Positions 38,421 to 56,846 of a stretch of 64,000 nt of DNA are shown piece by piece. The position numbers were made by a program, and so were the translations under genes. Position 1 is the stretch's first letter, and the number at the start of each line of letters is the position of its first letter. Location: the NCBI GenBank assembly GCA_001875255.1, contig MJAN01000013.1, positions 1 to 64,000 on the forward strand. Direction: 5' to 3'. Source of the DNA: Candidatus Sabulitectum silens. GTDB lineage: Bacteria > Fermentibacterota > Fermentibacteria > Fermentibacterales > JCC-6. Below the pieces are notes generated by a model. That model saw only the letters and a list, made by a program, of their open reading frames with translations. It did no database searches and was not told the origin of the DNA.

Positions 38421-39209
38421 ATGATGGATACAGTAACGAAACGAAGCCGTGTCAGGGTAAGTTCGCCTTTCTCGGAGGTAAGAACTTCCCCGGTAAGTGT
38501 GCATGGGAGCCAGGTATCGAACCAGGGCATCGAGATCCGGGATGACCACGGAGACTGGCAGTGTCTTAACATCCACTCCAGCAGCTACAAACTGGTTCCT
38601 AACGCCCTGGTCAACGAGATAGCCGAGGAGATCCTCATCCAGACAGGCCAGCAGTGGACTCCTCAAAGGGAGGTTTGGACAGGCAGGTACTGGGCAAAGC
38701 TCTACAGGTCCAACCTCGACCTGGATGTGCCTGAAGTAGGCGACACGATCAGCCTTGGCATCAGGATCGAGAACAGTTACGACGCAGTTGCCAATTCAGA
38801 ATGGTTCTGATGGGCTTCGTACTGTCCTGCACCAACGGCTTGGTCAGCCCGAAACACTTCTCAAGCTTCTCCATGCGGCACGTAGGTGACGAAGAGTTAA
38901 GTTTCGGGCTTGCCGCGGCGAAGATCAGACAGGGCATGGGAGAGCTGGAGGGAATACTTCCTCTGGTCAACCGTCTGAGCCGCATCCCTCTGACTGTCGA
39001 TCTCATAAGCCAGGTTGCGAACGAGACACCCTGCCGAACCGGGAGTGGGAGAGGTCTGTAAGCTTCTCGGAGGCTCAGAGACGGCCTGGGACTTGTACCA
39101 GGCAGTTACGCATAGATTGAGCCATCATGGTCGCGGCAGAGCCGGTATTCAGAACGAAGAACAGATTGGAGATTACTTCCTCGGGAGGATTGCCAACAGA
39201 GCAGCCTGA
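38421..39209 (+). CDS. DUF932-type phage/plasmid protein
   Basis: ATG at 38421 follows GGAGG. The sequence 'DWQCLNIHSSSYKLVPNALV' and 'LGIRIENSYDG' then 'MGFVLSCTNGLVSPK' are typical of DUF932 (TIGR03299-like) proteins of phages and plasmids, whose function is not settled. Three shifts break it: a lost G near 38780, and two around 39030-39055. Corrected, it runs on through 'GGSETAWDLYQAVTHRLSHH' to TGA at 39207-39209 (about 263 residues). It heads a plus-strand set with radC and an exonuclease. Confidence 0.65.
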
Positions 39210-39294
39210 TCAACCAGGAATTAAAGAATGGGCATGGGTGAAGGTGACATTACTAGTTACCGACATCCATGCCCGTATTTCAAGGGGAGGAAAA

Positions 39295-39795
39295 ATGAGC
39301 CACGAAACAACGCCACAAGACGAGGAGATGTACCTGGTGGCAAGAAAGAAGATCAGATGCATCTCCGTCTGCGAGCATGTTACCCGGAGGCATGGACCGG
39401 TTACCGATTTTGAGGCCGCCAGAGCCCTCTTAAAGCCCTTCTTTGACCAGGAGCCTTATGAAGCTGTCTACTGCATCGCTCTGGACAGCAGCAACCGTTT
39501 CCTGGGCTTTATGAAGCTGGAGGAGGGCACATCGAACAGTGCCAGGGTACACCTGAGGAAAATCTTCGTCTTTCTCTTGTGCGAGACCAACGCCACAGGG
39601 CTGATCCTCGCTCATAACCACCCCGGAGGCAGCACACAGCCCAGCAGGGAGGACATCGCCCTTACAAGAAAGATCCATGAGCACCTGAAGGAGCTTGATG
39701 TCCGTCTCCTTGACCACATCATCTACGCACCTGGAATCTCCGACAGCGAATCCAGCTGGGTTTCGCTCCAGAGCATGGGTCTGGTGCCGGCATGA
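39295..39795 (+). CDS. radC: RadC family JAB-domain protein
   Basis: A 166-residue protein with the JAB/MPN metalloprotease-like core: 'LDSSNRFLGFMKL', the zinc motif 'LAHNHPGGSTQPSREDI' (H-x-H...D) and 'LLDHIIYAPG'. I chose ATG 39295 because GGGGAGG precedes it and the longer frame upstream is non-homologous. It lacks the N-terminal HhH domain of chromosomal RadC, as usual for versions on phages, plasmids and islands. Despite the name, a role in DNA repair is not established. Confidence 0.88.
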   Translation: MSHETTPQDEEMYLVARKKIRCISVCEHVTRRHGPVTDFEAARALLKPFFDQEPYEAVYCIALDSSNRFLGFMKLEEGTSNSARVHLRKIFVFLLCETNATGLILAHNHPGGSTQPSREDIALTRKIHEHLKELDVRLLDHIIYAPGISDSESSWVSLQSMGLVPA

Positions 39796-40031: not shown

Positions 40032-40899
40032 ATGGCACACCGAACACTCGTTCCTCGAATCAAGTCCCCCGGAATGCAGATACGGTTCCAGGACTATGTT
40101 GATTCACCGGGCATTAACTTCTCAACCTTGAAGCGCATGGCCACAAGCCCCTTCACTATCAGCATGCACTCAGGAACCCGCCTTCACAGACACCTGCGAT
40201 GCTCCTGGGAAGGGCTACTCACACAGCGGTTTTCGAGCCGGAGAGATTCCAGCTTGATTATGCCCTGTGGCACGGAGACCGAAGAGGCAAGGCTTACAAG
40301 GAATTCGCCGAGGAAGCTACCCAACAGGGCCGCTCCATTCTTAAGGAAACGGAGCAGGACACAGCCCTTGCCATAAAAACGCCGTTAAGAACACCGCTGA
40401 AGTGGCAAGGCTCCTGGAACAGGGTCATTCAGAAGTTTCTATGTTCTGGAATAACCCGGCCACTGGCCTGGCATGCAAGGGGCGCCTTGACTGGATAGCC
40501 TGTGAAGGGGCCATCCTCGATCTGAAGACAACCTGCAGCATAGACCAGAGGGCATTCGCCCTGAAGGCATGGACCATGGGATACTTCCACCAGGCAGCCA
40601 TGTACCGTGAGGCTTACTCAGTCGCCTCGGGCAAAGGAATCCTCCTTCGAAGCGGCATCATCGCCGTGGAGAAGGATCCTCCCCATGCCTGCCGTCTCTA
40701 CTGGCTTGATGAGGACTCCCTGGAGCAAGCACATGAAGAATACATCGCCTGGCTGGAGAAGGTCAGGGAATGCAGAGAAAACGGCCTCTGGCCTGGTCCT
40801 GAGCCCGTAGAGAGCGAACTGTCTGCTCCTGCGTGGGCGATGTCATCAGGTACAGAAGAGGCCTTGACTTCGAAGGAGTTGATGAAAGTGAAGACCTAA
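40032..40899 (+). CDS. PD-(D/E)XK exonuclease (RecE/YqaJ-like)
   Basis: ATG at 40032, with AGGAGG 13 bases upstream, opens 'AHRTLVPRIKSPGMQIRFQDY'-like sequence (residues 2-22). Further on are 'LGRATHTAVFEPERF' and the catalytic part 'KGRLDWIACEGAILDLKTT' (Asp then Asp-x-Lys), followed by 'GYFHQAAMYREAY', as in phage exonucleases that work with single-strand annealing proteins. Frameshifts lie near 40165 and 40375. Corrected length is about 290 residues. It is followed by a small protein that may be its partner. Confidence 0.72.
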
Positions 40900-42073: not shown

Positions 42074-42153
42074 TGGGCTTAGAAAGCGTCTTTGAGTCGC
42101 GAAAAGAGGTGAGAAGTCATCAAACCAAACATTTCTGAAGGGAGGTGACCATA

Positions 42154-42837
42154 GTGAATGTTGTCGGATACATCCGGGTCAGCACCGATGAACAAGTGCG
42201 AGAGGGTATGAGTCTGGAAGCACAGAGATCGAAGATAAAGGCGTGGGTCCAAGCCATGGAATTTAAGCTTGTTGCGCTTGAGGAAGACGCCGGAATATCC
42301 GGTAAAAGTATAACCGCGAGAGAGGGCCTTAAGAGGGCCTTGGAGCTTGCATGCTCCCAGAAAGCGGCATTGGTCGTCTACAGCCTCTCTCGGCTCTCCA
42401 GGAGCACCAGAGACACCCTAATGGTGGCGGATAAGCTGGACAAGGCGGGAGCAGACCTCGTAAGCCTCTCAGAACGCATAGATACTACCACAGCAGCCGG
42501 GAAAATGGTGTTCAGGATGCTTGCAGTTCTTTGCGAGTTCGAGAGAGATCAGATCTCAGAGAGGACCAGCGCCATTCTTCAGCACAAGAAGTCACTCCTT
42601 GAGGCCTATTCGCCCACGCCTTACGGATTCACCAGACATGGCAAGGCACTCAGACCAGAGCCCGAAGAGCAGAGGGTTATCACGAAAATCAAGCGAATGC
42701 ATCGGCAAGGGAAGAGCCTGCGACGGATCGCACAGCACCTCAATACGAAAAGAATCCCATCAAAGAGAGGCTGCCGATGGCATCCGTCCACCATCAACTA
42801 CATCCTGAACAACGGGCTCCACGCAAGAAAAGGATGA
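42154..42837 (+). CDS. Serine recombinase (resolvase family)
   Basis: A serine recombinase of about 227 residues. The catalytic motif is 'VGYIRVSTDEQ' with the nucleophile serine, then 'EEDAGISGKS', 'LVVYSLSRLSRSTRD' and 'FRMLAVLCEFERDQISERT'. The C-terminal helix-turn-helix includes 'GKSLRRIAQHLNTKRIPSKRG'. The start is GTG 42154, with GGAGGTG seven bases upstream. An earlier GTG at 42145 overlaps the ribosome site and is less likely. It is a small resolvase or invertase type rather than a large phage integrase. A truncated copy lies at 44.4 kb. Confidence 0.9.
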   Translation: MNVVGYIRVSTDEQVREGMSLEAQRSKIKAWVQAMEFKLVALEEDAGISGKSITAREGLKRALELACSQKAALVVYSLSRLSRSTRDTLMVADKLDKAGADLVSLSERIDTTTAAGKMVFRMLAVLCEFERDQISERTSAILQHKKSLLEAYSPTPYGFTRHGKALRPEPEEQRVITKIKRMHRQGKSLRRIAQHLNTKRIPSKRGCRWHPSTINYILNNGLHARKG

Positions 42838-43551: not shown

Positions 43552-44360
43552 TGCCTCATGAATGACGATGAATCATACATCCCAGCCGGTCAGCGTCTGA
43601 ACTCATACCATCGGCATCCGGTGATTGCACGCTTGTGTTTTAATGCTGCAAATCTAGTAAATTGAAAGGTGTTCTTGGCAAACCCCGGGGATTCGGAGTC
43701 ATTCTCCGGCATCCCGTAGCTTCAATATCCAATAATGCGACATGACTGCTTTCCAAGTCAGTCCGATTTCGCCCTCAAAAAAAGTTTTCGGCCAGCTCTG
43801 TCCAACCACTCACAGAGAGGCCCCCAACACCAAAAACGCTACAAGTTGATGGCAAGAAACAATATAGCCCAATACAGCCCATCCACAGGCCCAATTTGAG
43901 CCTACGTTTCTGTATCGGATTGTTCCTTCTTGTAGGGTTCTTGGTGTCAGGGGTTGGTGTAAGGCCTGAGTGATACGCTAGGTAATACCTAAGCAAGGGG
44001 AGGCCTTTTTGCCTCCTCGGTAGGACTAGCTGGAGGGGTAAGTGGAGGGGTAAGGGGGGGAGTAAGGTCTATTGCCAAATTCGACTCGAGAGGGTCAATA
44101 AAACATTTCTGAGCTGTTTTTTTACAACCAACTCAAGGCAGTCTCTCGCGAATCGCTTCCGTGTCCAGCCTCGCTGCGTCCATCTCCGTCTCAGTTTCTG
44201 TGGTTTATAGAGTGTCCCGAAGCAGTGGGCACAGGCTGGCTCCGTAACCGGGCTTGATGGAAAAGCTCCTCTTCATCGCTGAGGACATATGGATCTTCGG
44301 CAAGCTCATAAGGAACAGAGTCGACCTCAGAAGGGCCATAGAGTTCAATGTGCCGAGACG
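43552..44360. other. Non-coding stretch between recombinase copies
   Basis: No convincing coding frame is present. It holds the hairpin GGGGAGGC (43997-44004) / GCCTCCTC (44011-44018) with loop CTTTTT, and the tandem repeat that follows. Otherwise I see nothing. Confidence 0.5.
44031..44066 (+). repeat. Three tandem 12-base units
   Basis: TGGAGGGGTAAG at 44031-44042 and 44043-44054 is repeated exactly, followed by a diverged third unit GGGGGGAGTAAG (44055-44066). The direct, G-rich array has no spacer. Its role is unknown. Confidence 0.6.
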
Positions 44361-44570
44361 GCTGTACTGGTTGTCTACAGCCTCTCTAGGCTCTCCAGGA
44401 GCACGAGAGACTCTCTCATTGTGGCAGACAAGCTGCACAAGGCTGGAACTGACCTCTTCAGCCTCTCAGAGCGGATCGACATAATCACCGCTGCCGGCAA
44501 GATGGTTCTCAGGATGTTGGCAGTTCTCAAAGAATGTGAATGCGATCAAATCGGGGTAATGACCATGTCA
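44361..44570 (+). pseudogene. Truncated serine recombinase copy
   Basis: The translation 'VLVVYSLSRLSRSTRDSLIVADKLHKAGTDLFSL' (over residues of the frame) continues to 'AAGKMVLRMLAVLKECECDQI'. It parallels the intact recombinase at 42.36-42.57 kb, with about three quarters of residues identical. The N-terminal catalytic serine segment and the C-terminal DNA-binding domain are missing, and the 5' side is not similar. This is a relic of a second, diverged recombinase rather than a recent duplication. Confidence 0.7.
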
Positions 44571-44747
44571 GCAACAGGCGGGGGCGTGCAAATGAGAGTG
44601 GATCATCGCAACTCGTAGTGGAGTGCCGATTCGGTTCTTCATATAGCATGGGTTCTCCGTGGTGAGTCTAACACCCAGAATCAGCAGCTGGGTAGCTGCA
44701 TACTGTTGTTGTACATATTCTTGCCGAGTATGTAGATTGTAAAACCA

Positions 44748-47700
44748 TCAGCTCCCCCGACTTCGGAAGTAGTCACGAAGCCTGATGTAATGGGCTTTCC
44801 GCGCAATCTCTGGTTCTGCCTGCACTATCTCATCCAAGCACTCTCCTAGCGAGCGTGGAGCCCAAATCCCCTCGGTAATAAATGCATTCAACAACAATAA
44901 ACACTCCGCAGGGAATCGACTGCACAAATGAGATTCTTGAAGTAGATGGATGAGGAAGTCGGAGGATTCAACTGGTCGCAACCAGTCTTGAACCATAGCT
45001 AATGCTTCCGGTAACTTGCCTTGGGCGGCGATAACTAGAAGGGTCAAGGATTCGGCAATCCGCGGAGTGACAAGATTGAGTGATTTGGGCCACACATGTT
45101 GCCAGAATGGCTGAACACGGTTCTCCCAGTATTCCTCACGCTGCTTGCCGGCCCCCTTAAGAGCCTGGGAGAGTGCTTGAGCGGACTCCTCGAGCCCATC
45201 TTGAGGTAGTGCGCCAATCGCTATTCGCAACTCATCCACCGAATATCCTTCAGGAGGATCCAATGCTACATACGTTATAAACGTAGCATACTGATGTCGG
45301 ATAACGCCGAACTCTGCATAATGTTTTGCACATTCCAGAAGCTGTGATTTGAAGGCCATCAGCAAGGGTTGATACAGCCGTGGTGAACAAAGAAATCCTT
45401 CCCAAACCCCCCTCGCTTCGCTTGGATTCTCCCAGGAAAACAGTGGTAGCAGATGTTTCTCAGTCCACTTTTGGTCCACCCGAAAGAAGGCAATTACATG
45501 CGAACCCAGGAGCACACGACCGTGGCGATATCGCTCAACCCGTACATCACACAGTTGTGTAAATAGAGGTTTGATGTCACTTGGTAGCAAGTCATTATCA
45601 TTCAGTTGCCTATGAAAGCACAGATTAATTATCGCACGCGCAATAAGCCCAATTGGATGATTAATTGCCTCAGCGAATGGCTGGTCGCTGATATCATCGT
45701 TGCGCTCCATATCCCTCCCCAACTGGAGTGACAGTGCTAGTACTCGTTGGCACAAGCTCAGCAGGATGTCCTGGTAGTGTTCAATGCTCTTGGATGCAGC
45801 CTCAATCCACCACGCTACGCTGTGGATGGTCTCCAAGATTACCGAATCAGGCATGGTCTGCATTGTAGGTGCAGCGTAGCGCCACATTCGCAGTATACGC
45901 TTCTTATCTCCCCAAATATAGAGGGCATCCCGCCATCGATCAGCAGGCCAAAGGTTTTCCTTTGCTATGTCAGCAAGAGCGAACAAGCAATTCATAGGGT
46001 GCTTTTCGCATGCATTGCGCCACGTATCCTCTTGAAACGGCGTTCGTTCGGGATGTGAATTCTTCAGCCATTGCACCAGTTCGTGTCTTTTTCGAGGGGC
46101 AATGTCGATGTCACGGCTTTCTTCGAAATCGGGATCGCCTGTGCCACTCATCCAGTTTGAGAACTCATCGCTCTCGTTGTCCTCTAGGTGCCATTGCGGG
46201 TGGGAGCTAGATAGCTCTTCCAGCTGGGCTCTTGCCGGGGTGCCCAGTGTGACACCTGAGGCTTTCAGTTTAGCCAGACGTAGCCACACTGCTCGTGAAA
46301 CTATGTTATGCCACATATCTGTTTCAAGATCATCTCGATACATCTCGCGTGGAGGACCCGCCAGGATAGCCGCTTCCAAACGCTCCTTAGACTTCCCTCT
46401 CAATTCGCGCCCCTGCAGTACCAACAGCCGGAACACCTCCCGGCCGGTAGCCACAGACCAGAGCCACCAATAGTTGTCTGCAATCAACCAATCCACCCAT
46501 TGATTGGATGGGATCCATTCACCTTCGCTGGCAGCGAACAGAGCCAATCGTTTAAAAGTAGGATAGGGCCGCTCGAACCATTCCTGTGCAATTCGTATAG
46601 CTCGGGCATGATTTTGGACAGAAACCGCCAGCCAGGAATCGCGCAGTAACTCGATTAAACAAACCCAGTTGTGGATGTCTCGGTTCTGCCAATGTGGTGT
46701 GATTGATGGCAAATCCCAGTAAGAAAGGTCTCTGTGGTCGTCAGCTTCACCTAACTCTCGCAGCAAATCCAGCGCATCGCACAACAGTTGCTCAAAATCC
46801 CCTATCAATTGCGGCAAGATAGACGACAGTTCAGAGTTGGATAATTCCATTAGAGCCGAATGCACGTCATCAGTGGTCAGTACCAAACTGGAATCCACAA
46901 GCTGGCTTACCCGTAGGGGCTCATCAGTATTCTCTTCTTCATTGCCCCAGTAAAATGGTTTACTCAAGACGACCTGGGGTGCGAGCAATTCACGAAGCTC
47001 CAGACGTAGAGTAGCAGTAAGACCCACTAGTTTAACACGCGATATCCAATGATAAAGTTCATAACTACGCCGCGAAGATTTCACTCTTCCGCTGAGTAAT
47101 AATCGCCACAAAACCCTCATCGATGGGCTAGGGATAGCATTGGGCGCTTGTGACCGAATCACCTCCAGTTCGTCATTCTTACCTGCACTTTCCAGTGATG
47201 CAATGTGAGTGAGTTGATGCTCAATGAGACTCGAAAAACGATCATGCAACCGCCCACCATGTTGAACGATCCAAAGAACCAACCTTGGATCATCCAAGTG
47301 GCGCACTAGCCAACGCCCCAGTTGGAACATCACATCATCCCATTGACTGCCAGTAAAACCACCGAAAGCAAGCAACATGAACGGTGCGCGATTATAAGGA
47401 GCTGGTCGGTGAATCAGGCTAAAGCGTAAATTGGCGTCTGTTTCATCGTGGGGGGGAACGCAGAATCGAATAAGATCATCGTGCTGAAAGCGCTCATCTG
47501 CGAAGGACTCTAACAGCCAATCTAGAGACGGTACGGGATTGAAGTTGGCGAAGCACTTAGCCGGCAACCCTGATTTGTCGGACAAAGCCCACAGCATCCG
47601 ACTGACGAAGTCGTCCTGCTGCGTACTACTCGAGGGTCTTGTGAGAGCATGGTTTACAACAATACGTTCCTTGCCTAGTACGCCATCACGGTAAGTGTCT

Positions 47701-48571
47701 GCCCAAGCGTGCAAGGTCTTGTGTAGCTTGGAATGATCGTTACTGCCAGCAGGTATTTCATATAGGATGGGCGTTACACCCTTTGCTTCCCACTCAATGA
47801 CCTTGGACTTCTCTTTCCCGGGTTCGCAATCGCCGAGTGCCCAAGCTTTTGGAGTTACCTCTCCCTGCATCCGATCAGCGGCCAGCGCATCCATCATGTA
47901 GCGGAGAACTTGATCATTTATGCTGTATCCGATGAAGCATACTGTGTATTCTCGGAACAATTCACTAACGAAACGTGCAGCCCAGCGTTCTGTAAGGTAG
48001 GCTAGACCAAAGTCACCACTTGTCATAATGAGTCGATTTAGTGCAGTTATATCTTCTTTACTAGGAAGTAATCCATGTAGAAAACCAGTCCATTCCATCG
48101 GCTGTTCTTCGGAACCGGCAACAGCGGCGCAGAATATGCCTGAAACACTTGGCCAATGCGTTTTGCAGCTGAGTGAAATACCCGGTCGAAGTTTGTGGTA
48201 ACTAGTCGCAAAGCTCCCTCACGACTGAGAGCCAGCCGTAGAATCGCCGAATGTGTTTCAGTGGCACCCTTACGGTACAGTTTGGGCCTCAGCGCTTTTG
48301 CCAGCGCACGCCGGACGGCCAAGCGCTGCCCCGGTAGACGTCTCTCCAGCAGGTCCAGTGTGGCATCGAACTGCCCTAGTTCGAGTGCTTTCCTCTCTAT
48401 GGCTGAAGGGGTCGTTCCATTCAGCTCGTAGATCTTCTTGACCAATCCACAGAAACCTGGAAGGCCAGCAGGGTAGGAAATCCCAGCACCACAGAAAAAC
48501 ACCACACGACCTTCCTCATGCGCCTGCAGAAGCGAGTCGGGGATATCTGGGCCGTCGGTGATGAACTGCAT
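44748..48571 (-). CDS. SIR2-domain defence-associated sirtuin (DSR1-like)
   Basis: A large protein (about 1270 residues after correction). The N-terminal SIR2 domain has 'FFCGAGISYPAGLPGF' (NAD-binding GAGIS at residues 28-32), 'TTNFDRVF' (residues 125-132) and 'FLHG' with the expected catalytic His near residue 160. Then come 'SGDFGLAYLTERWAARFV' and 'CFIGYSINDQVLRYMMDAL'. A very long helical C-terminal region follows, as in sirtuins that deplete NAD upon phage infection (DSR1/DSR2 types). One frameshift near 48075 splits it. It ends a minus-strand run of defence genes. NADase activity is inferred from the family, and the trigger is unknown. Confidence 0.75.
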
Positions 48572-48648: not shown

Positions 48649-49626
48649 CTATGGTTGCGTACCGTCCACGCTGTTGTTATGGACTTCTCCTATCTGCAAG
48701 AACTCGAGAAGACGATACACTAAACGTGGGGGGCGGTTCCGGGGGCGCACTGTTCTCATCAGAACCTTAACCATGCAATGCTCTCCAATGGCTGGAGTTC
48801 CACTATGAATGGTCTCAGTGAATTGCTCTGTGGCCTCCTTTGAAGCCGATCCGTAGATTGTATCATCTGGATTATCGATGGGCCGAAGCTCAAAACGACG
48901 ATGTTCAGGTAGAAAGCCCAGAAGCGTCCCTGAGATTTCACCACCCTCTTCATCGATCTGAGTAGCTTCCATTCGAATCCTAGCTCGATGGACAGCTGCT
49001 GCATCCATTGTCATGTCCTTGGTATCGTTAACAATACGCACTGTCGCCTCGCTGGTGTCTAGGTCGATGAAGAAATCACGCAGAGCAGATAAGGACCTGG
49101 GATCAAGATCCTCGGCAACATGTTCGAACACCTCTTCATCAACTGAGCCTGAGGATTCGAGAAGCATAAGTACTTTAGCAGTTAACTCCTTCAGAGCCGT
49201 ATCAAACATTTGTGTTTGATCACTAAGTTCATCAAGGAGAAAACCAAAAGAACCGTGTGTTACCCCTGTTATCATTAGTGTAGTCAGGTCCTTTAGTGGG
49301 ACTCTGCCCCGCTCTCCCAGTCCACCGAGTTCCGCAGATGCATACTGCTTCGATAGAATGTCCTGAAAGTGCTCAAGGGCTCTTCCAGCAAAATTAGCTG
49401 CTATCCCGCGAGACCCAAATACAGGTTTCCCTCCGAAATAGAGAGCAAGACTCGCTTGGTGTATCCTCGCAGAGTGAAGTGCTTCAATTTCTTTCAAGAG
49501 CTCTCTTTTTCTCTGCTCATACTGAATCTGTCCGACTGGATCCTCGATATCATAGGCATCTTCCATAAGCAATGTAAGTGCCGCAAGCTCAGCTTCGAGG
49601 GCTTCAAGTTCCAGCTTACGGTGCAT
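48649..49626 (-). CDS. Unrecognised partner of the DUF6932 protein
   Basis: About 325 residues from ATG 49626, which has GGAGGA six bases upstream (a TTG at 49641 opens the same frame). A helical N-terminus 'MHRKLELEALEAELAALTLL' with a probable coiled coil to residue 50 is followed by an alpha/beta part ('FAGRALEHFQDIL', 'MITGVTHGSFGFLLDEL'). The C-terminal half is beta-rich ('GTLLGFLPEHRRFEL', 'AIGEHCMVKVLMRTVR'). I see no nuclease, protease or membrane signature. It overlaps the upstream DUF6932 gene by 11 bases, so the two are translationally coupled. Function unknown. Confidence 0.7.
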   Translation of the reverse strand: MHRKLELEALEAELAALTLLMEDAYDIEDPVGQIQYEQRKRELLKEIEALHSARIHQASLALYFGGKPVFGSRGIAANFAGRALEHFQDILSKQYASAELGGLGERGRVPLKDLTTLMITGVTHGSFGFLLDELSDQTQMFDTALKELTAKVLMLLESSGSVDEEVFEHVAEDLDPRSLSALRDFFIDLDTSEATVRIVNDTKDMTMDAAAVHRARIRMEATQIDEEGGEISGTLLGFLPEHRRFELRPIDNPDDTIYGSASKEATEQFTETIHSGTPAIGEHCMVKVLMRTVRPRNRPPRLVYRLLEFLQIGEVHNNSVDGTQP

Positions 49627-50194
49627 GGTTGAGTCCTCCAATCATAGAGATAGCCTGGGCATCATCCGCTTGAAGGGGGACCATCAGTAGCCCCTTCCAT
49701 AAGTATGTCATTCTCTGGTGTGAGAACAACCCAAACCAATAGCGAGAGCGAGATACGAGCTGTCGGCTGGGCAAACCAAGATCCTCATAGAATGCATCGC
49801 AGGAATACGTCTGCTTGATTGCATCTCGATCAAAAAGGCTGCTCCTGTTCTGGGCAACGAAATCTTTCCATGATGAGAGGTCGCTACAATGCACAGGTCT
49901 CTCTGCGAAAGTAACAAGATCAATATCGCTTGGTGGCCTAGAGCGATGCTTCTCGCAGTCTTCAAGATAGCTACCATCAATCCACTGAAATCCATCAATA
50001 ATCCCATAGCTTCGCAGTTTCTCTCGATATCTAAGAAGACCGTTGAGGATGCTTACTCTTTCGGGTGATGAGGCAAAACGCTGGACAATCTCAACAAGAG
50101 TGGCTTGATAGGGCGCCATTGCAGCAGATTCCGTGGGTCCTGCATTAGGTAGAAATGGTGGAAGTACACCTGATTGGTTTAGCGATGGTATCAT
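49616..50194 (-). CDS. DUF6932 nucleotidyltransferase-like protein
   Basis: A 192-residue protein starting at ATG 50194, with GGGAG upstream. The N-terminus 'IPSLNQSGVLPPFLP' and the motif 'WIDGSYLEDCEKHRSRPPSDID' (GS...DxD, spread over residues 71-93) match the DUF6932 family. That family resembles nucleotidyltransferases of the MNT or antitoxin kind. The GSY and DID residues would be the catalytic pair. It forms a coupled pair with the next gene, inside the defence block between the restriction system and the sirtuin. Activity is unproven. Confidence 0.7.
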   Translation of the reverse strand: MIPSLNQSGVLPPFLPNAGPTESAAMAPYQATLVEIVQRFASSPERVSILNGLLRYREKLRSYGIIDGFQWIDGSYLEDCEKHRSRPPSDIDLVTFAERPVHCSDLSSWKDFVAQNRSSLFDRDAIKQTYSCDAFYEDLGLPSRQLVSRSRYWFGLFSHQRMTYLWKGLLMVPLQADDAQAISMIGGLNHAP

Positions 50195-50363: not shown

Positions 50364-51078
50364 TCATACAGTCATGAACCTCCCATTCCTCTCCAGCCAC
50401 TCCCTCGCACCGGCGTAGTCGGGTAGGCATGAGGATACCAGGCTCCAGAACTCGCTGGAATGGTTCCTGTGTTTGAGATGGCAAAGCTCATGAACTACGA
50501 CGTACTCAAGTACCGGCTTCGGAGCCATGACGAGGAGCCAGTTGACCCTTATGCTGCCGGTCTTCCCACAGCTTCCCCAACGGGTTTTTAGTGCTGATAC
50601 CGCTGCCGGTCCTGGTGCTACATTCAGAACAGGGGCATAGAGGCTTATTAGAGCCTTACATCGTCTTTCAGTCTAAACCTGAGCCACTTCTCGATGGCGG
50701 CCCTTACATCGTTCTCAGAGGCATTGCAGGGCTTTGTTACGAGGAATCCGTGTCTATATGAGACTGTGACGCGGTTGATGTCTTCTTCTCGTACCCGGAG
50801 TTTCATGTTCCGCCCGTAAAACGGTATCTTGGCTCCGGTCACGAACCGCTCCGGCCAGGAGAAGATGGATCTCTCTTCCAGTGCGACCATGTCTTCGACT
50901 TTGCGGTAATCCACTGCCTCTTCTTTTTGACAAAACTGTCAACTCTGTCTCTGGAAACGTCCTCTGGAGCCACGGCTTCAACCAAATCAGGAGTTACACG
51001 GATGCTCATGCGCTTTGCCCTGGTGCTGTAACGGATGGAGTAAGGGATCTCAGTGGAACCGACGGTGAGTACAGGCAT
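50364..51078 (-). CDS. YgjP/DUF45-type zinc metallopeptidase
   Basis: About 238 residues after correction. The N-terminus 'EIPYSIRYSTRAKRMSIRV' is the DUF45 start. 'TRWGSCGKTGSIRVNWLL' and the zinc motif 'EYVVVHELCHLKHRNHSSEFW' (HExxH type, HELCH) mark the catalytic domain. Shifts near 50912 (lost T) and 50655 (lost G) break the frame, so the catalytic half is not an open frame from any start. It follows hsdR with a one-base overlap (TGATG). DUF45 genes are commonly attached to type I restriction operons, with unknown role. Confidence 0.8.
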
Positions 51079-54000
51079 CAGCTTACCTTCACATAGAATC
51101 GAAGAGCGAACTCCTCCACCTTATGCGGCAGGGGCATGAGCTTTCTTGCATCCTGCAGGCCTGCTTCGTATGCCATTGCTCTTACCTGCTGCCTGAGTTG
51201 TTTCTTGAGCTGAGACTTCATGTGCCAGCCGACAGGGGCTTCATCATCATCGGAGTAGAGTTGGTCGATCTCCTGGGCAAGTTCACGGATCCAGTCCATC
51301 AGGCTCTTCTGATCTCCCTGACCACCGGCGTTGCATTCTTCATCTGGCTGTTCCGTCTCTTCAGCCAGGTACTCCTGCAGCAGACGATACACTCCGTAGG
51401 CCCGTTCATTCATGCCTGAGGCCTTATAGGACTGCTCTTCTTCCCTTACCCCTGCAAGAACGTCATCCAGGCCGCTAAGGGCCTCAGAGGCGTCTATCTG
51501 CCTTGATTCGAGCTGCTTCAGTATCTCCATCACCCTTGCGGAGAATTTGTCGTATCTCAAAGGATTCTCAGCAGTCTTCTCCCGGAGGATCTTCGTAAGC
51601 TCTGAACCCCGTCTGATGGCTGCGGAATTCAGCTCTGCGGGTTCCTCTGCATCTACTGTCTTAGGCTGCAGGTCAGCCAGGGTTCTCAGTTTGATGATGG
51701 AGACCATACCGGATACTTCGAGATAGTCACGGAGCATTTCACGGACCTTTGCGCTGTAGCTCCTGAGGTCGAAATCATCTCCGGGCTCGAACCTGAGCTT
51801 TCCATAGGCCAGGAAGGCGGCAATCCACTTCATGTAAGCCGAGTAGTCAAGAACGAAGGGATCCGGGCTCAGGGCCTCGTATGCCTTCAGGAAGGAGGTT
51901 GCCTTGCCTTTGAAGCTGTACCAGTCGTCTTCACCTTCAAGCAGGGAGAGCATGGAATCCATTTCAGCCTTGATGTTGCCGGTATTCAACCTGACTGCGG
52001 ATGTCAGCCGGGACACTTCAGCGTAGGCCGTGGCCAGTTCTTCCCTCTCTGCCTGTATGTCCACCATGGCATGAGCAATGTCGGGCTCGTGGTATGATGA
52101 GAGGGCTTCCTTCAGGTAGCGGGTAACACCGATGTAGTCCACAATCAGGCCGAAGTCCTTGTGGTCTCCGAATACCCTGTTCGTTCTGGCGATTGCCTGG
52201 AGCAGGTTATGGTCCTTCAGAGGGCTGTCCAGGTACATGGTGTTCTCCACCGGGGCATCGAAGCCTGTCAGGAGCTTGTTGCACACAATGAGGAACTTGA
52301 TGTCTCCATCCGGGTCTTTGAACCTGGAGATGATGTCCTTCTCCTCTTGCCCCTCAGTCTTGTACTTGCCGAGGTCTTCCCTTATCTCGTTAAGCCAGGC
52401 ATCCTCGCTGGGCTTGCCGTCCTCCTGGTTGGTTGAGTAGATGGGGCGCTTAATTCTGCGGCCTTTGCTGCTGCTTCATCGGGTGATGTACCTCTGCGGA
52501 TCATGTCATCAGCTATGGCTTCATCCAGGGCTCTCTTGTAGAGGATGATGGCTTCCCGGTCAATTGCGACAATCTGGGCCTTGTATCCGTCAGGTTCAAC
52601 ATGAGCCTTGTAGTGTGTCCAGATGTCTTCGGCGATGGTCTTGATCCTTTTTGGATGCTTTGCCAGTATGGAGACCGTTACGCTCTTTTCCTTGAGCTCG
52701 TTCAGCCGCTCCTCATCCAGATCGCTGAACCAGTTGTCGAACTGCATGTCCAGGTGTTTTTCGTCAACCTGCCATTCGGTCTTGCGGCTGGTGTAACGAA
52801 CTGGAACGGTTGCCCCGTCCGCAACGGCATCATCAATGGAATACTTGTCCAAGTAGCCTTCTCCATTCGCGCCGAAGTTCTGATAGGTATTCAGGTCATT
52901 CTTCTTCACCGGGGTTCCTGTGAACCCGAAGAACCAGGCATCAGGCAGTGTTGCCCTCAGGTATGCTCCCAGGTCTTTCTCCTGTGTGCGGTGACATTCA
53001 TCCACCAGGACGATCCAGTTGGAGCTGTTCTCCACAGACTTACGGGAGCCGTCGAACTTGAAGATGGTGGATAGCAGGGTTAAGCCCACAGTGCCGGAAT
53101 GGACATAGCTGTGGAGGTCCCGAACAGATTTCATCTGCCTCGGGTTGGGGAGACCGCATGCCTGGAATGTTTTCGCAATCTGGTCGTCCAAGTCAATCCT
53201 GTCCGTTACCACCAGGATGTTAGGGCTTGCCAGGGATGGATCTGAGAGCGTTCTGTGGATCTTGAGCTTCAGGGCGGTGAATACCATGGTGAGGGACTTG
53301 CCGCTGCCCTGTGTGTGCCATATGAGGCCCTGTCGGTGTTTCCCATTCACCACGCGGTCAACTATCTTGTTTACGGCCCTATACTGCTGATACCGGCACA
53401 TCTTCTTTACAGTCTTGCCGGAGCGGGTCTCGAACACGATGAAGTGAGCCAGCATGTCCAGCAGTCGTGATGGCTCCAGCAGGCAGTAGAGGGCGTTATC
53501 CAGAGCAGAAGCGAACTCGGTCTCGTTCCTGGGCCATGGGTCTTTCCAGACACTCCAGAATTCAGATGGAGCTCCCGTGGTTCCGTACAGGGTACGCACA
53601 CCATCTGTGATGACGCTGAAGAGATTGGAGTAGAAGAGTCGGGGAATATCCCTCTCATACTGTTTGATCTGCTCGAAGCCCTGGGAGACCTTGTCTCCGA
53701 CGGCAACGGGGCTCTTGGCTTCAATGACGACTAGAGGAATGCCGTTCACATATACGACCACATCAGGCTTGCGGGAACTCTGGGCCTTAACGAAGAGTTG
53801 GTTGGTCACTGTGAACCGGTTACGCTCTACATTCCGGAAATCAATGAGGTGGATGGTCTGCTTGGTGGATGAGCCGGGAACATGTCTGCTGTAGTTGCCT
53901 CGAAGGAGAGAGAGCCACTGCTGGTTATCCGTCACATTAAGCATGTCCAGGTAGACGGTTCTGGCCGTATCCTCATCAAGGTCATTGATCTCGCAGATGG

Positions 54001-54148
54001 CTGAGATGAACTCATCACGGAGGAGAACCTGGTTCAAGCCGTCACGGGCAAGCTCGTTCCTGCTGGGGTGGAGCCAGGAATAACCCAGTGCTTGAAGACC
54101 TTCGATGCAGGGTTTTTCGGCGAGGGTGTATTCGCAAGGGGTGGACAT
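51078..54148 (-). CDS. hsdR: Type I restriction enzyme subunit HsdR
   Basis: HsdR translocates DNA and cuts at a distance when bound to unmethylated sites with HsdM and HsdS. The nuclease part has 'KPDVVVYVNGIPLVVIEAKS' with Asp129 and Glu143-x-Lys145. The helicase part has Walker A 'QGSGKS' (residues 280-285) and the DECH box (383-386), with 'GFTGTP' further on. One lost A near 52455 splits the assembled gene; restored, it reads 'ELKRPIYSTNQ'. Corrected length is about 1023 residues, normal for the family. The start overlaps the hsdS stop. Confidence 0.95.
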
Positions 54149-55372
54149 CAGACGGCCACCCTTACTTTGCCGGTGAGGAGGTCCTGCATGAGGCCTTTCT
54201 TGAGGATTTGGAGGCTTTCCACTAAGGTTTCGTCAGATTCAATCTTATGATCAACACTGCTGAATACTGCTGCAATTTGCCTCTGCTCATCCAATGGGGA
54301 ATAGGTATTTTTAGCTGCTCCACCTGATAGGCATAAAGATGAATTACTGAGCTCCCCTGCCCAAATCTGGATTTCTGAAGATTAACTACAGGTGAGTTAA
54401 CTACATGACCAAGATAATGATAAGACACTGATGCGGAAGGTCTGAAAAGTATGATGTCTCCACCAGCATAGGCTTCGATGTCACGCAGTAGAGTTGCTGC
54501 CATACCTATTTCCTCGTGTGTTTCGCCTGATCCAGCAAACAGGACATCACCAAGTTGTATTCTGGTGTAGGAGTTTCTACTGGATTCGCTGATGTAAGAT
54601 GTGAATTGCTTGATGAAGGTCCTATGAGTGGTGTACAATTCACCATACCTTACACAAGGGAATCCCATCTCGATGGAATCTTTCTTTGAACCTCCATGGG
54701 ATTTCGATACTTCGCCAATCTCAAAGAGCTTGCATACTTTCCAGGTCTCCGGTATCTCCCCAATCTCAGTCTTCTTAAAACTCGTATGCCCAATCCCCCT
54801 TGTTAGAAGCTCCTGCATGAGCCCCTGCTTGACCTTCCTGGTTTGCTCAATAGTTTCCCCGGTGGCCTGGATGGTTTCGTCCACGCTGGAGAGGATGGCG
54901 GCGATCTTCTTCTGCTCGGGGAGGGGGGGGCAAGAACCTCAAGTCTCTCAAATCTCTTGCGTGGAATGTAAGATATGGTGGTCCCCGTTGATGAACGAAC
55001 TAACTGCTTTGACATCGAAGACATTAGGTAAAACAGGAAGGAACTTGTTGTCATATTGCTGCCCGGTACTAGCCCTATGAAGGTCTGATTTGATACCAGC
55101 TCGTTCAAGGCTATCGCACAAATCCCAGGTGTACAGCTGCATGAGCACAGGACAGTTCCCTTTGGATAAACCTTTAGCTTCATCTCCTTAATAGTCTGTA
55201 GATCTACACACCGCCCAAGTTTCGATTCTGATATGGTGTTACCATCAATATCCTCAATCCGACACCAGGGTGTTTTCCCAGAGAAACGCTTTGGCTTATC
55301 TCTCATTGGAACAATGAATTTGGCAACAAGTCGATCAAGCCGTTGGCGTTTCCACCCCTCAGGAACGGTCAT
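54148..55372 (-). CDS. hsdS: Type I restriction specificity subunit HsdS
   Basis: HsdS recognises the bipartite DNA target through two target-recognition domains. The first domain starts at 'MTVPEGWKRQRLDRLV' and the second at 'GEIPETWKVCKLFEIGE'. Conserved helical linkers ('TRKVKQGLMQELLT') separate them, and a second copy of the linker closes the protein ('LQILKKGLMQDLLT'). Lost bases in the G-run near 54925 and near 54280 split the gene. Corrected length is about 408 residues. Its start overlaps hsdM by 14 bases. Confidence 0.93.
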
Positions 55373-56846
55373 AACCCAACTCCTTCAGGTAGGCTTCCAT
55401 CTTTCCCTCGGCTTCATTCCTTTTTGCCGTCAGCTCCTTGAGCTTCTTGTACTCCTCGGCAACATCAATCTGCTCTTCGGGCTCTGTGGAGTCCACATAC
55501 CTGGCAATGTTAAGGTTCCAGTCGTTACCCTTGATCTCTTCAAGGTCAACAATCCGGGAGAATCGTTCCTCGTCTTCGTAGGCATTGTAGGCCTCAACCA
55601 GCCTGGCAACATTCGCATCGGATAGGCTGTTCTGATTTTTCCCGGGAATCATCTCCTCAGCTCCATGGATGAAGAGCACCTTGCCCTTCCGGCCTGAAGG
55701 CTTATCCCTGTTGATTATGAGGACAGAAGCCGGAATGCCGGTTCCGTAGAAAAGGTTCGGGGCAAGACCGATGATAGCCTCGATCAGGTCATCACCCAGT
55801 ATGCCCTCCCGAATCCTGCCCTCTGCGCCGCCTCGGAACAGAATACCATGAGGAAGAACCACTCCAAGCTTTCCCTGGGGCTTCAGGCTGGCAATCATGT
55901 GCTGTACGAAGGCCAGGTCTCCATAGCTCTTAGGAGGGCACCCATACTTGTCTCTGCTGTATGGATCCCCAGCATCCCATACTTCCTTGCCCCAGCTCTT
56001 AAGGGAGAATGGGGGATTGGCCAGCACCCGGTCAAACCGCTTGATGCTCTTGCTGCCCTCTCTCTGGAGATGTCTTGGGTTCCTGAGCGTGTCTCCCTTC
56101 AACACCTCTGCATCGTCTATCCCATGAAGGAAGAGGTTCATCTTGCAAATGGCCCAGGTATTCAGGTTGATTTCCTGACCGTACAGGCTGACCGATCTGG
56201 GATTGAGTCCCTTCCTCTCCATGTAGTGTATGGATTCCAGGAGCATGCCGCCTGAACCGCAGGTGGGGTCGTAAATGCTCATGTTGTTCTCCGGCTGCAG
56301 GCACTCAACAATGAGACGAACGACCATCTTGGGAGTATAGAACTCTCCACCCTTCTTGCCGGCATCATCTGCGAATTTGGCAATGAGGTATTCGTAAGCA
56401 TTGCCCAGTACATCGGGCTCAACATCACACTTTCTAAGGCGGTGCTTCTCAAAATGCTCCAGGAGAAGCTCCAGGGTGGCATCAGGGAACCGTTCCTTGT
56501 TGTTGAAGTCCACATCCTGGAATATCCCCTGAAGTCGCTGGTTGGCGTCCTCAATGGCGTGGAACGCCGCATTAAGGTATTCCCCGATATTGGTGGTTCG
56601 CTTCCTGACATCGCTCCAGAATGCGCCCTCTGGGATATGGAACCGGTGCTCATCAGGTGAGGCTGCGATCTCCTTGTCGTTGTACTGAGCGAGTCTCTGT
56701 TCATATTCCTCCTCCCAGACGTCACAGATGCGCTTGAAGAAGAGAAGACCGAAGATGTAATGTTTGTAGTCCGAGGAATCTATCTTGCCTCTGAGGATGT
56801 CCGCTGCGCCCCAGAGATGGGATTCGAGCTGCTGGAGTGTTAACAT
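55359..56846 (-). CDS. hsdM: Type I restriction methyltransferase subunit HsdM
   Basis: HsdM is the N6-adenine methyltransferase of the type I complex. At 495 residues it is unbroken. The N-terminal helical domain 'LQQLESHLWGAADILRGKID' is followed by the SAM-binding motif 'DPTCGSGGML' (residues 193-202) and the catalytic 'NPPF' (residues 277-280). 'KKGGEFYTPKMV' precedes them, as usual. It is the first gene of the minus-strand defence run hsdM-hsdS-hsdR-DUF45. Confidence 0.96.
   Translation of the reverse strand: MLTLQQLESHLWGAADILRGKIDSSDYKHYIFGLLFFKRICDVWEEEYEQRLAQYNDKEIAASPDEHRFHIPEGAFWSDVRKRTTNIGEYLNAAFHAIEDANQRLQGIFQDVDFNNKERFPDATLELLLEHFEKHRLRKCDVEPDVLGNAYEYLIAKFADDAGKKGGEFYTPKMVVRLIVECLQPENNMSIYDPTCGSGGMLLESIHYMERKGLNPRSVSLYGQEINLNTWAICKMNLFLHGIDDAEVLKGDTLRNPRHLQREGSKSIKRFDRVLANPPFSLKSWGKEVWDAGDPYSRDKYGCPPKSYGDLAFVQHMIASLKPQGKLGVVLPHGILFRGGAEGRIREGILGDDLIEAIIGLAPNLFYGTGIPASVLIINRDKPSGRKGKVLFIHGAEEMIPGKNQNSLSDANVARLVEAYNAYEDEERFSRIVDLEEIKGNDWNLNIARYVDSTEPEEQIDVAEEYKKLKELTAKRNEAEGKMEAYLKELGYDRS

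Follow-up and report, generated by a model that had tools for sequence, protein, structure and literature searches.

The current analysis assigns two overlapping genes of Candidatus Sabulitectum silens, located in the 64,000-nucleotide stretch analyzed here (the window), to a near-obligate, mobile two-gene module that pairs a small nucleotidyltransferase (NTase) of the DUF6932 family with a downstream partner protein. Judged by sequence comparison, DUF6932 has three partner classes, with the window partner falling into class 1, and the pair appears to be a divergent class of PDC-M63, an existing but unproven defence candidate, rather than a new kind of system. A defence role is likely. With a probability of about 0.42, we propose that the pair functions as a mobile anti-phage module of the toxin-antitoxin-like or abortive-infection kind, in which the partner would be the effector and the NTase its nucleotidylating regulator. 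The pair consists of the following features:

49616..50194, minus strand: gene 1, DUF6932 minimal NTase, 192 aa, PDC-M63A-like (Pfam, PADLOC, conservation, AlphaFold2)
48649..49626, minus strand: gene 2, partner, 325 aa (translation, AlphaFold2, hhalign to PDC-M63B, phrog_18731)
49616..49626, minus strand: 11-base overlap of both reading frames (open reading frames; presumed coupling)
49635..49639, minus strand: GGAGG within the NTase gene, putative ribosome-binding site of gene 2 (read from the sequence)

The partner frame runs from an ATG at 49626 to a stop at 48649 on the minus strand, which creates the overlap with the NTase gene exactly where a sequence-only reading of this DNA had placed it. 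That reading had also credited the partner with its own ribosome site, which we likewise find as a GGAGG 8 nt 5' of the ATG. Presumably, the NTase and the partner are translationally coupled.

The assignment of gene 1 to DUF6932, initially made from the letters alone, is confirmed by a Pfam match to PF22014 (E 4.4e-30). Furthermore, the PADLOC model PDC-M63A recognizes residues 36-172 at 7.6e-15 over profile positions 26-147 of 152, and the same model matches 81 of 82 aligned NTases. The GS...DxD motif noticed earlier is present as GS-X14-DID, and the predicted catalytic residues comprise G74-S75, D90, D92, and D133. Both D90 and D92 are invariant (82/82 aligned NTases), while the third carboxylate, D133, is an Asp in 79/82. 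The AlphaFold2 model has a pLDDT of 95.8 and yielded no significant match to PDB chains in Foldseek. Additional support for the NTase assignment comes from a class-2 NTase, which matches DNA_pol_B_palm at 9e-6 (over its cut-off) as well as NTP_transf_2 weakly. Gene 1 encodes an enzyme of the Pol-beta type that consists of one domain and retains the full set of three metal-binding carboxylates, and it looks catalytically competent.

The partner had been described as a protein of about 325 residues with a coiled coil, and both points hold, as it is 325 aa long and AlphaFold2 places a helical hairpin at residues 3-52. Structure prediction had been suggested for both proteins, and the models made of each singly are confident (pLDDT 94.3 for the partner). 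The partner model predicts a soluble protein in which the N-terminal hairpin is followed by an alpha/beta core (residues 59-221) with GSRGI and GSFGF motifs and a C-terminal beta barrel (residues 223-312). Within the core, G66, F79, G107, G125, S126, and G128 are invariant; R39, R177, and R218 are conserved arginines of the partner. The window partner has no match among Pfam, NCBIfam, and PADLOC models, and it is matched by phrog_18731 at 8.3e-34. Scanning its sequence revealed neither a HEPN motif nor HExxH nor any membrane segment. Similarly, we found no HTH in class-1 and class-2 partners, no recognizable catalytic site in the partner, and no conserved tyrosine acceptor of the HepT kind in its family. 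Structure comparison with the PDB returned no solved relative and no significant match, the best hits being small OB folds (Rim1, CspA; SSB/OB) that match weakly at the C-terminus (best E 4e-3). Matches of the pair's models to betaine aldehyde dehydrogenase (E about 0.1) were rejected as chance. Among viral models, the partner gave a fold match to DUF6575 (E 2e-13, TM 0.41), which is present in a validated defence system (PMC9519451). Because so few Pseudomonadota carry DUF6575 that no comparison could be made, and because the two DUF6575 loci inspected contain no NTase, this possible fold relative stays a weak lead.

One of the key features of the pair is the constancy with which its genes occur together. 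As a single-sequence query, the window partner returned nothing from genome or viral contigs; tblastn against plasmids recovered four relatives with 30-38% identity, and in all four the gene immediately preceding the partner is of the DUF6932 type and carries no annotation beyond hypothetical. A profile built from the window partner and these four plasmid relatives picked up 80 loci in genomes plus 31 viral ones, and a DUF6932 match lies immediately upstream in 113 of 115 partner loci, including two (L115/L116) in which the NTase is only a short remnant. The latter were considered as a module swap and rejected, since they consist of an NTase and partner fragment inside unrelated sequence. The gap between both genes ranges from -20 to +19 bases in the relatives, with one frame-broken exception. 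Of the two loci without an NTase, one is a contig edge (L055) and the other a solo partner (L038). The reverse search, starting from the NTase, found the partner adjoining in 46/46 newly fetched viral DUF6932 loci, some of which share contigs with the first locus set. As expected from co-inheritance, the NTase and partner distance matrices are correlated over 82 loci (Pearson 0.85). Such constant pairing far exceeds what chance would produce. The sequence-only reading had staked its proposal on frequent co-occurrence and on a partner outside the known housekeeping families, and it survived on both counts.

The three partner classes emerged from a PF22014 search of 399 Pseudomonadota genomes, about 4% of which carry DUF6932. 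The search returned 18 genes in 17 genomes (2 of them already in the earlier locus set), and the partners at these 18 loci comprise 10 of class 1, 3 of class 2, 4 of class 3, and 1 remnant (L178). The three class-2 proteins match PDC-M63B in PADLOC at 1.5e-154, 9e-44, and 9e-61, and an NTase is also present in 23/23 viral class-2 loci. PDC-M63B models produced 0 direct matches to the window partner; two of these models are weakly matched by 14/95 and 5/95 partner relatives (best 4e-5). When 91 class-1 partners were aligned with the three class-2 proteins, hhalign reported a probability of 97% (E 9.3e-11, 291 columns), by which the window partner is a distant homologue of PDC-M63B over its whole length. 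Taken together with the NTase match to PDC-M63A, this points to a divergent branch of a listed two-gene candidate. The earlier statement that the partner matches nothing is therefore not supported, nor is the suggestion of a new pair, as PDC-M63 is already a candidate in PADLOC-DB 2.0 and has been tested once, when the deletion of PDC-M63AB from E. coli NILS69 left the results with ten dsDNA phages unchanged (PMC12409345); this panel included neither temperate lambdoid phages nor ssDNA/RNA phages. The window pair shares its gene order and overlap with PDC-M63, whereas its partner scores zero against all PADLOC models and its NTase is longer, with an N-terminal extension and a GS-X14-DxD motif, in contrast to a GS-to-DxD spacing of about X9 in the class-2 and class-3 NTases inspected. 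Both features set the window pair apart as a separate branch. Within the literature searched, there is no mention of DUF6932 and a single mention of PDC-M63, and as far as these papers show, there is no earlier description of the division into three partner classes, of the PD-lambda-2B connection, or of the genomic address discussed below.

In class-3 partners, helices at the N-terminus precede an Xre HTH domain and an ImmA/IrrE peptidase domain (Pfam HTH_3, Peptidase_M78), and these proteins show no sequence similarity to class 1. Full-length class-3 proteins are confined to those of the 399 genomes that have a class-3 DUF6932 (4/4), whereas ten other genomes with class-3 matches, nearly all of them lacking the N-terminal part, have no DUF6932. 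Presumably, it is the N-terminal helices that dock on the NTase. One class-3 partner (L173) matches PD-Lambda-2_B in PADLOC at 1e-75. PD-lambda-2 is a validated E. coli defence system (Vassallo et al. 2022, PMC9519451), in which PD-lambda-2B is toxic alone and neutralised by the upstream-gene product PD-lambda-2A (PMC9519451). The two systems would share a core of upstream regulator and downstream effector, with the class-3 NTase taking the position of PD-lambda-2A. However, PD-lambda-2A is HigB-like rather than an NTase, PD-lambda-2 has a third gene, and its Xre-ImmA/IrrE second gene is found among the class-3 relatives only, the window partner being unrelated in sequence.

The phage-borne relatives exhibit a distinct genomic address. 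An S24 (CI/LexA-type) repressor is encoded by 24 of 50 phage contigs, and in 19 of these 24 the repressor gene precedes the pair in the same orientation, at a distance of 56-994 bases (13/24 under a 400-base limit, 19/24 at about 1 kb), although some contigs are near copies; at a random position, well under one contig would be expected. The 19 contigs include 12 of class 1 and 7 of class 2, and in these contigs an integrase often follows 5-17 kb downstream of the pair. Phage lambda carries anti-phage genes of its own, rexAB, at the site directly downstream of the CI repressor, which is also the location of bstA, and few promoters are as active in lysogens as that of cI (PMC8585504; also PMC12894663). 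The phage-borne pair often occupies this lysogeny-expressed slot, in common with RexAB and BstA of lambdoid prophages, for which family scans found no relation to the pair. To our knowledge, neither RexAB nor BstA holds an NTase. The rexAB address is limited to phage contigs, as 0/80 class-1 genome loci lie beside a lambda-type CI, and the window copy is likewise found away from a CI-repressor site, in a defence island. Outside of phages, the pair is found in plasmids and islands. One class-2 pair is present in 96 of 5,426 complete E. coli genomes (about 2%), always on the chromosome; in M8, the one strain inspected, it is flanked by a CI-like repressor on one side and kil-gam-bet-exo-int on the other, at tRNA-Arg. 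Its carriage by phages beside a repressor gene suggests that the pair is probably a little-studied defence module and not a housekeeping pair.

Between 36 and 60 kb of the window, the GC content is about 0.50, down from 0.57-0.58, and within the pair it is 0.48, which places the pair in an island containing the following features:

48047..48571, minus strand: Dsr1 N-terminal part, anti-phage sirtuin family (NCBIfam NF041818 1.4e-86, PADLOC Dsr1 1.2e-93)
44748..48098, minus strand: Dsr1 C-terminal part (NF041818 E 0, profile 161-1263)
51078..56846, minus strand: type I restriction-modification genes (Pfam HsdM_N, N6_Mtase, HSDR_N, SWI2_SNF2; breaks from open reading frames)
55359-56846, minus strand: hsdM, intact (Pfam)
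54222-55372, minus strand: hsdS pieces (by position and the sequence-only reading only)
51078-54148, minus strand: hsdR pieces (Pfam; frame breaks from open reading frames)
44289-44618: second resolvase-like fragment
42145-42837: serine recombinase
40402-40899: DUF3799 nuclease
39127-39795: RadC-like gene (by eye)

The run hsdM-hsdS-hsdR-DUF45-[pair]-SIR2 proposed earlier names the right neighbours, of which hsdM is intact. However, hsdS, hsdR, and the DUF45/YgjP-like peptidase gene are frame-broken, and the SIR2 gene is a Dsr1 gene that a single frame shift near 48050-48098 divides in two, outside the pair. Such breaks beside an intact pair reflect either decay of the island or indels in the assembly. 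Of 42 genomes from the phylum to which the window belongs, this one alone has the pair, whose nearest relatives are from Gammaproteobacteria; with a bin contamination of 5.2%, either transfer or a stray contig in the bin would explain this sole occurrence. Immediate neighbours at 75 genome loci include strong matches to type I methylase, DpdF, Avs3a, GajB, PsyrT, RTasHel, PDC-S28, and PDC-S08, for which no enrichment is claimed, and HsdM relatives lie within 10 kb of the pair at 5 of about 80 loci.

The organization of the pair is reminiscent of HEPN/MNT (HepT/MntA, type VII) systems, which similarly join a small GS...DxD NTase to an adjoining partner gene. The HEPN/MNT partner, however, is a HEPN protein with an RX4HXY motif, which is absent in the window partner and present in 1 of 91 aligned partners, whereas the window partner is a predicted alpha/beta protein plus barrel; the NTases also differ in their spacing (X10 vs X14) and Pfam family (PF01909 vs PF22014). 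Type VII membership was rejected, as the partner has neither HEPN motif nor HEPN fold. The previously suggested MNT-type reading is thus retained for its two-gene module and defence contexts, but not as a canonical MNT-HEPN system. We also rejected membership in AbiE type IV/MenA-MenT, as neither protein matches AbiEii in Pfam or PADLOC, and in CBASS, based upon the absence of PADLOC CD-NTase or effector matches and of a membrane segment.

MntA nucleotidylates HepT (PMC7641770), and it is by analogy to MntA-HepT and PD-lambda-2A/2B that we assign regulation to the NTase and the effector role to the partner, this direction of control being a guess. In the proposed anti-phage module, the NTase and partner would form a complex through the hairpin, within which the NTase would hold the partner in an inactive state, most likely through transfer of a nucleotide onto it. 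ATP or another NTP could serve as the donor, and the invariant GS hairpin (S126) is a possible acceptor. Phage infection would relieve this inhibition, whereupon the partner would stop growth or phage replication. Defence is the best-supported role, given the address, the mobility, the neighbours (hsdMSR and Dsr1 in the window), and the PD-lambda-2B link; weighing against the module are the NILS69 deletion without effect and a partner devoid of a recognizable catalytic site, a PDB relative, or a HepT-like tyrosine. Conversely, it is conceivable, if rather unlikely, that the NTase is itself the effector and adds nucleotides to RNA (e.g. tRNA 3' ends) like AbiEii or MenT, with the partner inhibiting it or recruiting RNA. 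The full conservation of the catalytic residues would suit such an enzyme, as would the weakly OB-like barrel (Rim1, CspA; best E 4e-3) and the conserved R39, R177, and R218 of the partner. In AbiE, however, the antitoxin gene comes first and the antitoxin is a wHTH protein, whereas here the NTase gene comes first and classes 1 and 2 lack an HTH. Furthermore, no AbiEii model is matched, and the PD-lambda-2 analogy points the opposite way.

We consider it unlikely that the pair has no anti-phage action and instead serves its mobile element, by maintaining lysogeny, stabilising a plasmid or island, or taking part in phage DNA metabolism. Against this reading, the pair recurs at the rexAB/bstA site in different phages and is also found in defence islands outside phages, and one class-3 partner is related to a validated defence protein. 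In its favour, the pair is carried by prophages, plasmids, and islands, the flanking genes at genome loci are co-oriented only about half the time with many being non-defence genes, and the NILS69 deletion produced no phage phenotype (PMC12409345). Highly improbable is a CBASS-like arrangement, in which the NTase would make a small nucleotide signal upon infection for the partner to sense and act upon. An NTase fold in a defence setting is compatible with signalling, and CdnC, a CD-NTase, is among the best NTase matches in Foldseek (insignificant, E 0.25). CD-NTases have a C-terminal domain, whereas this NTase is a single domain of 150-190 aa lacking it, and no PADLOC CD-NTase model is matched. 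The partner lacks a membrane segment and has neither a nuclease domain nor any other domain known from CBASS effectors, and the gene overlap suggests a fixed complex.

What had been an anonymous candidate in a database is now a well-delimited module: its enzyme can be tested, its partner has a fixed architecture, and its genomic address is telling. Should the NTase indeed control its partner by nucleotidylation, this would widen the mechanism beyond HEPN toxins and explain what many prophages and defence islands carry at these sites. A broader and rather doubtful generalization is that DUF6932 NTases are a new toxin-antitoxin or abortive-infection type, in which one NTase would control OB-barrel or Xre-metalloprotease effectors via an N-terminal helical dock, nucleotidylating a non-HEPN protein, and which temperate phages would use at the rexAB site. 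As relatives occur in about 2% of E. coli and about 4% of the sampled Pseudomonadota, laboratory strains should allow easy tests.

Several further observations were made among the relatives. PDC-M32A is weakly matched by 11/95 partner relatives (best 5.5e-8) and PDC-M05A by 4/82 NTase-family members (best 1.9e-4), which suggests that further candidate systems may share the superfamily. The one clear solo case, L038:9094-10029, is an intact class-1 partner without an NTase, located 3' of an unrelated coiled-coil gene. In L035:9267-10193, the N-terminal half of DUF6932 is opposite in strand to its C-terminal half and the partner, reflecting an inversion inside the gene, a misassembly, or possibly a switch. 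Lastly, L227:3865-4600 and L228/L229:3986-4435 encode class-3-like proteins consisting of the N-terminal helices and Xre HTH only, without the peptidase, and in L227 the helices-Xre gene is immediately preceded by a C-terminal NTase remnant, beside an integrase.
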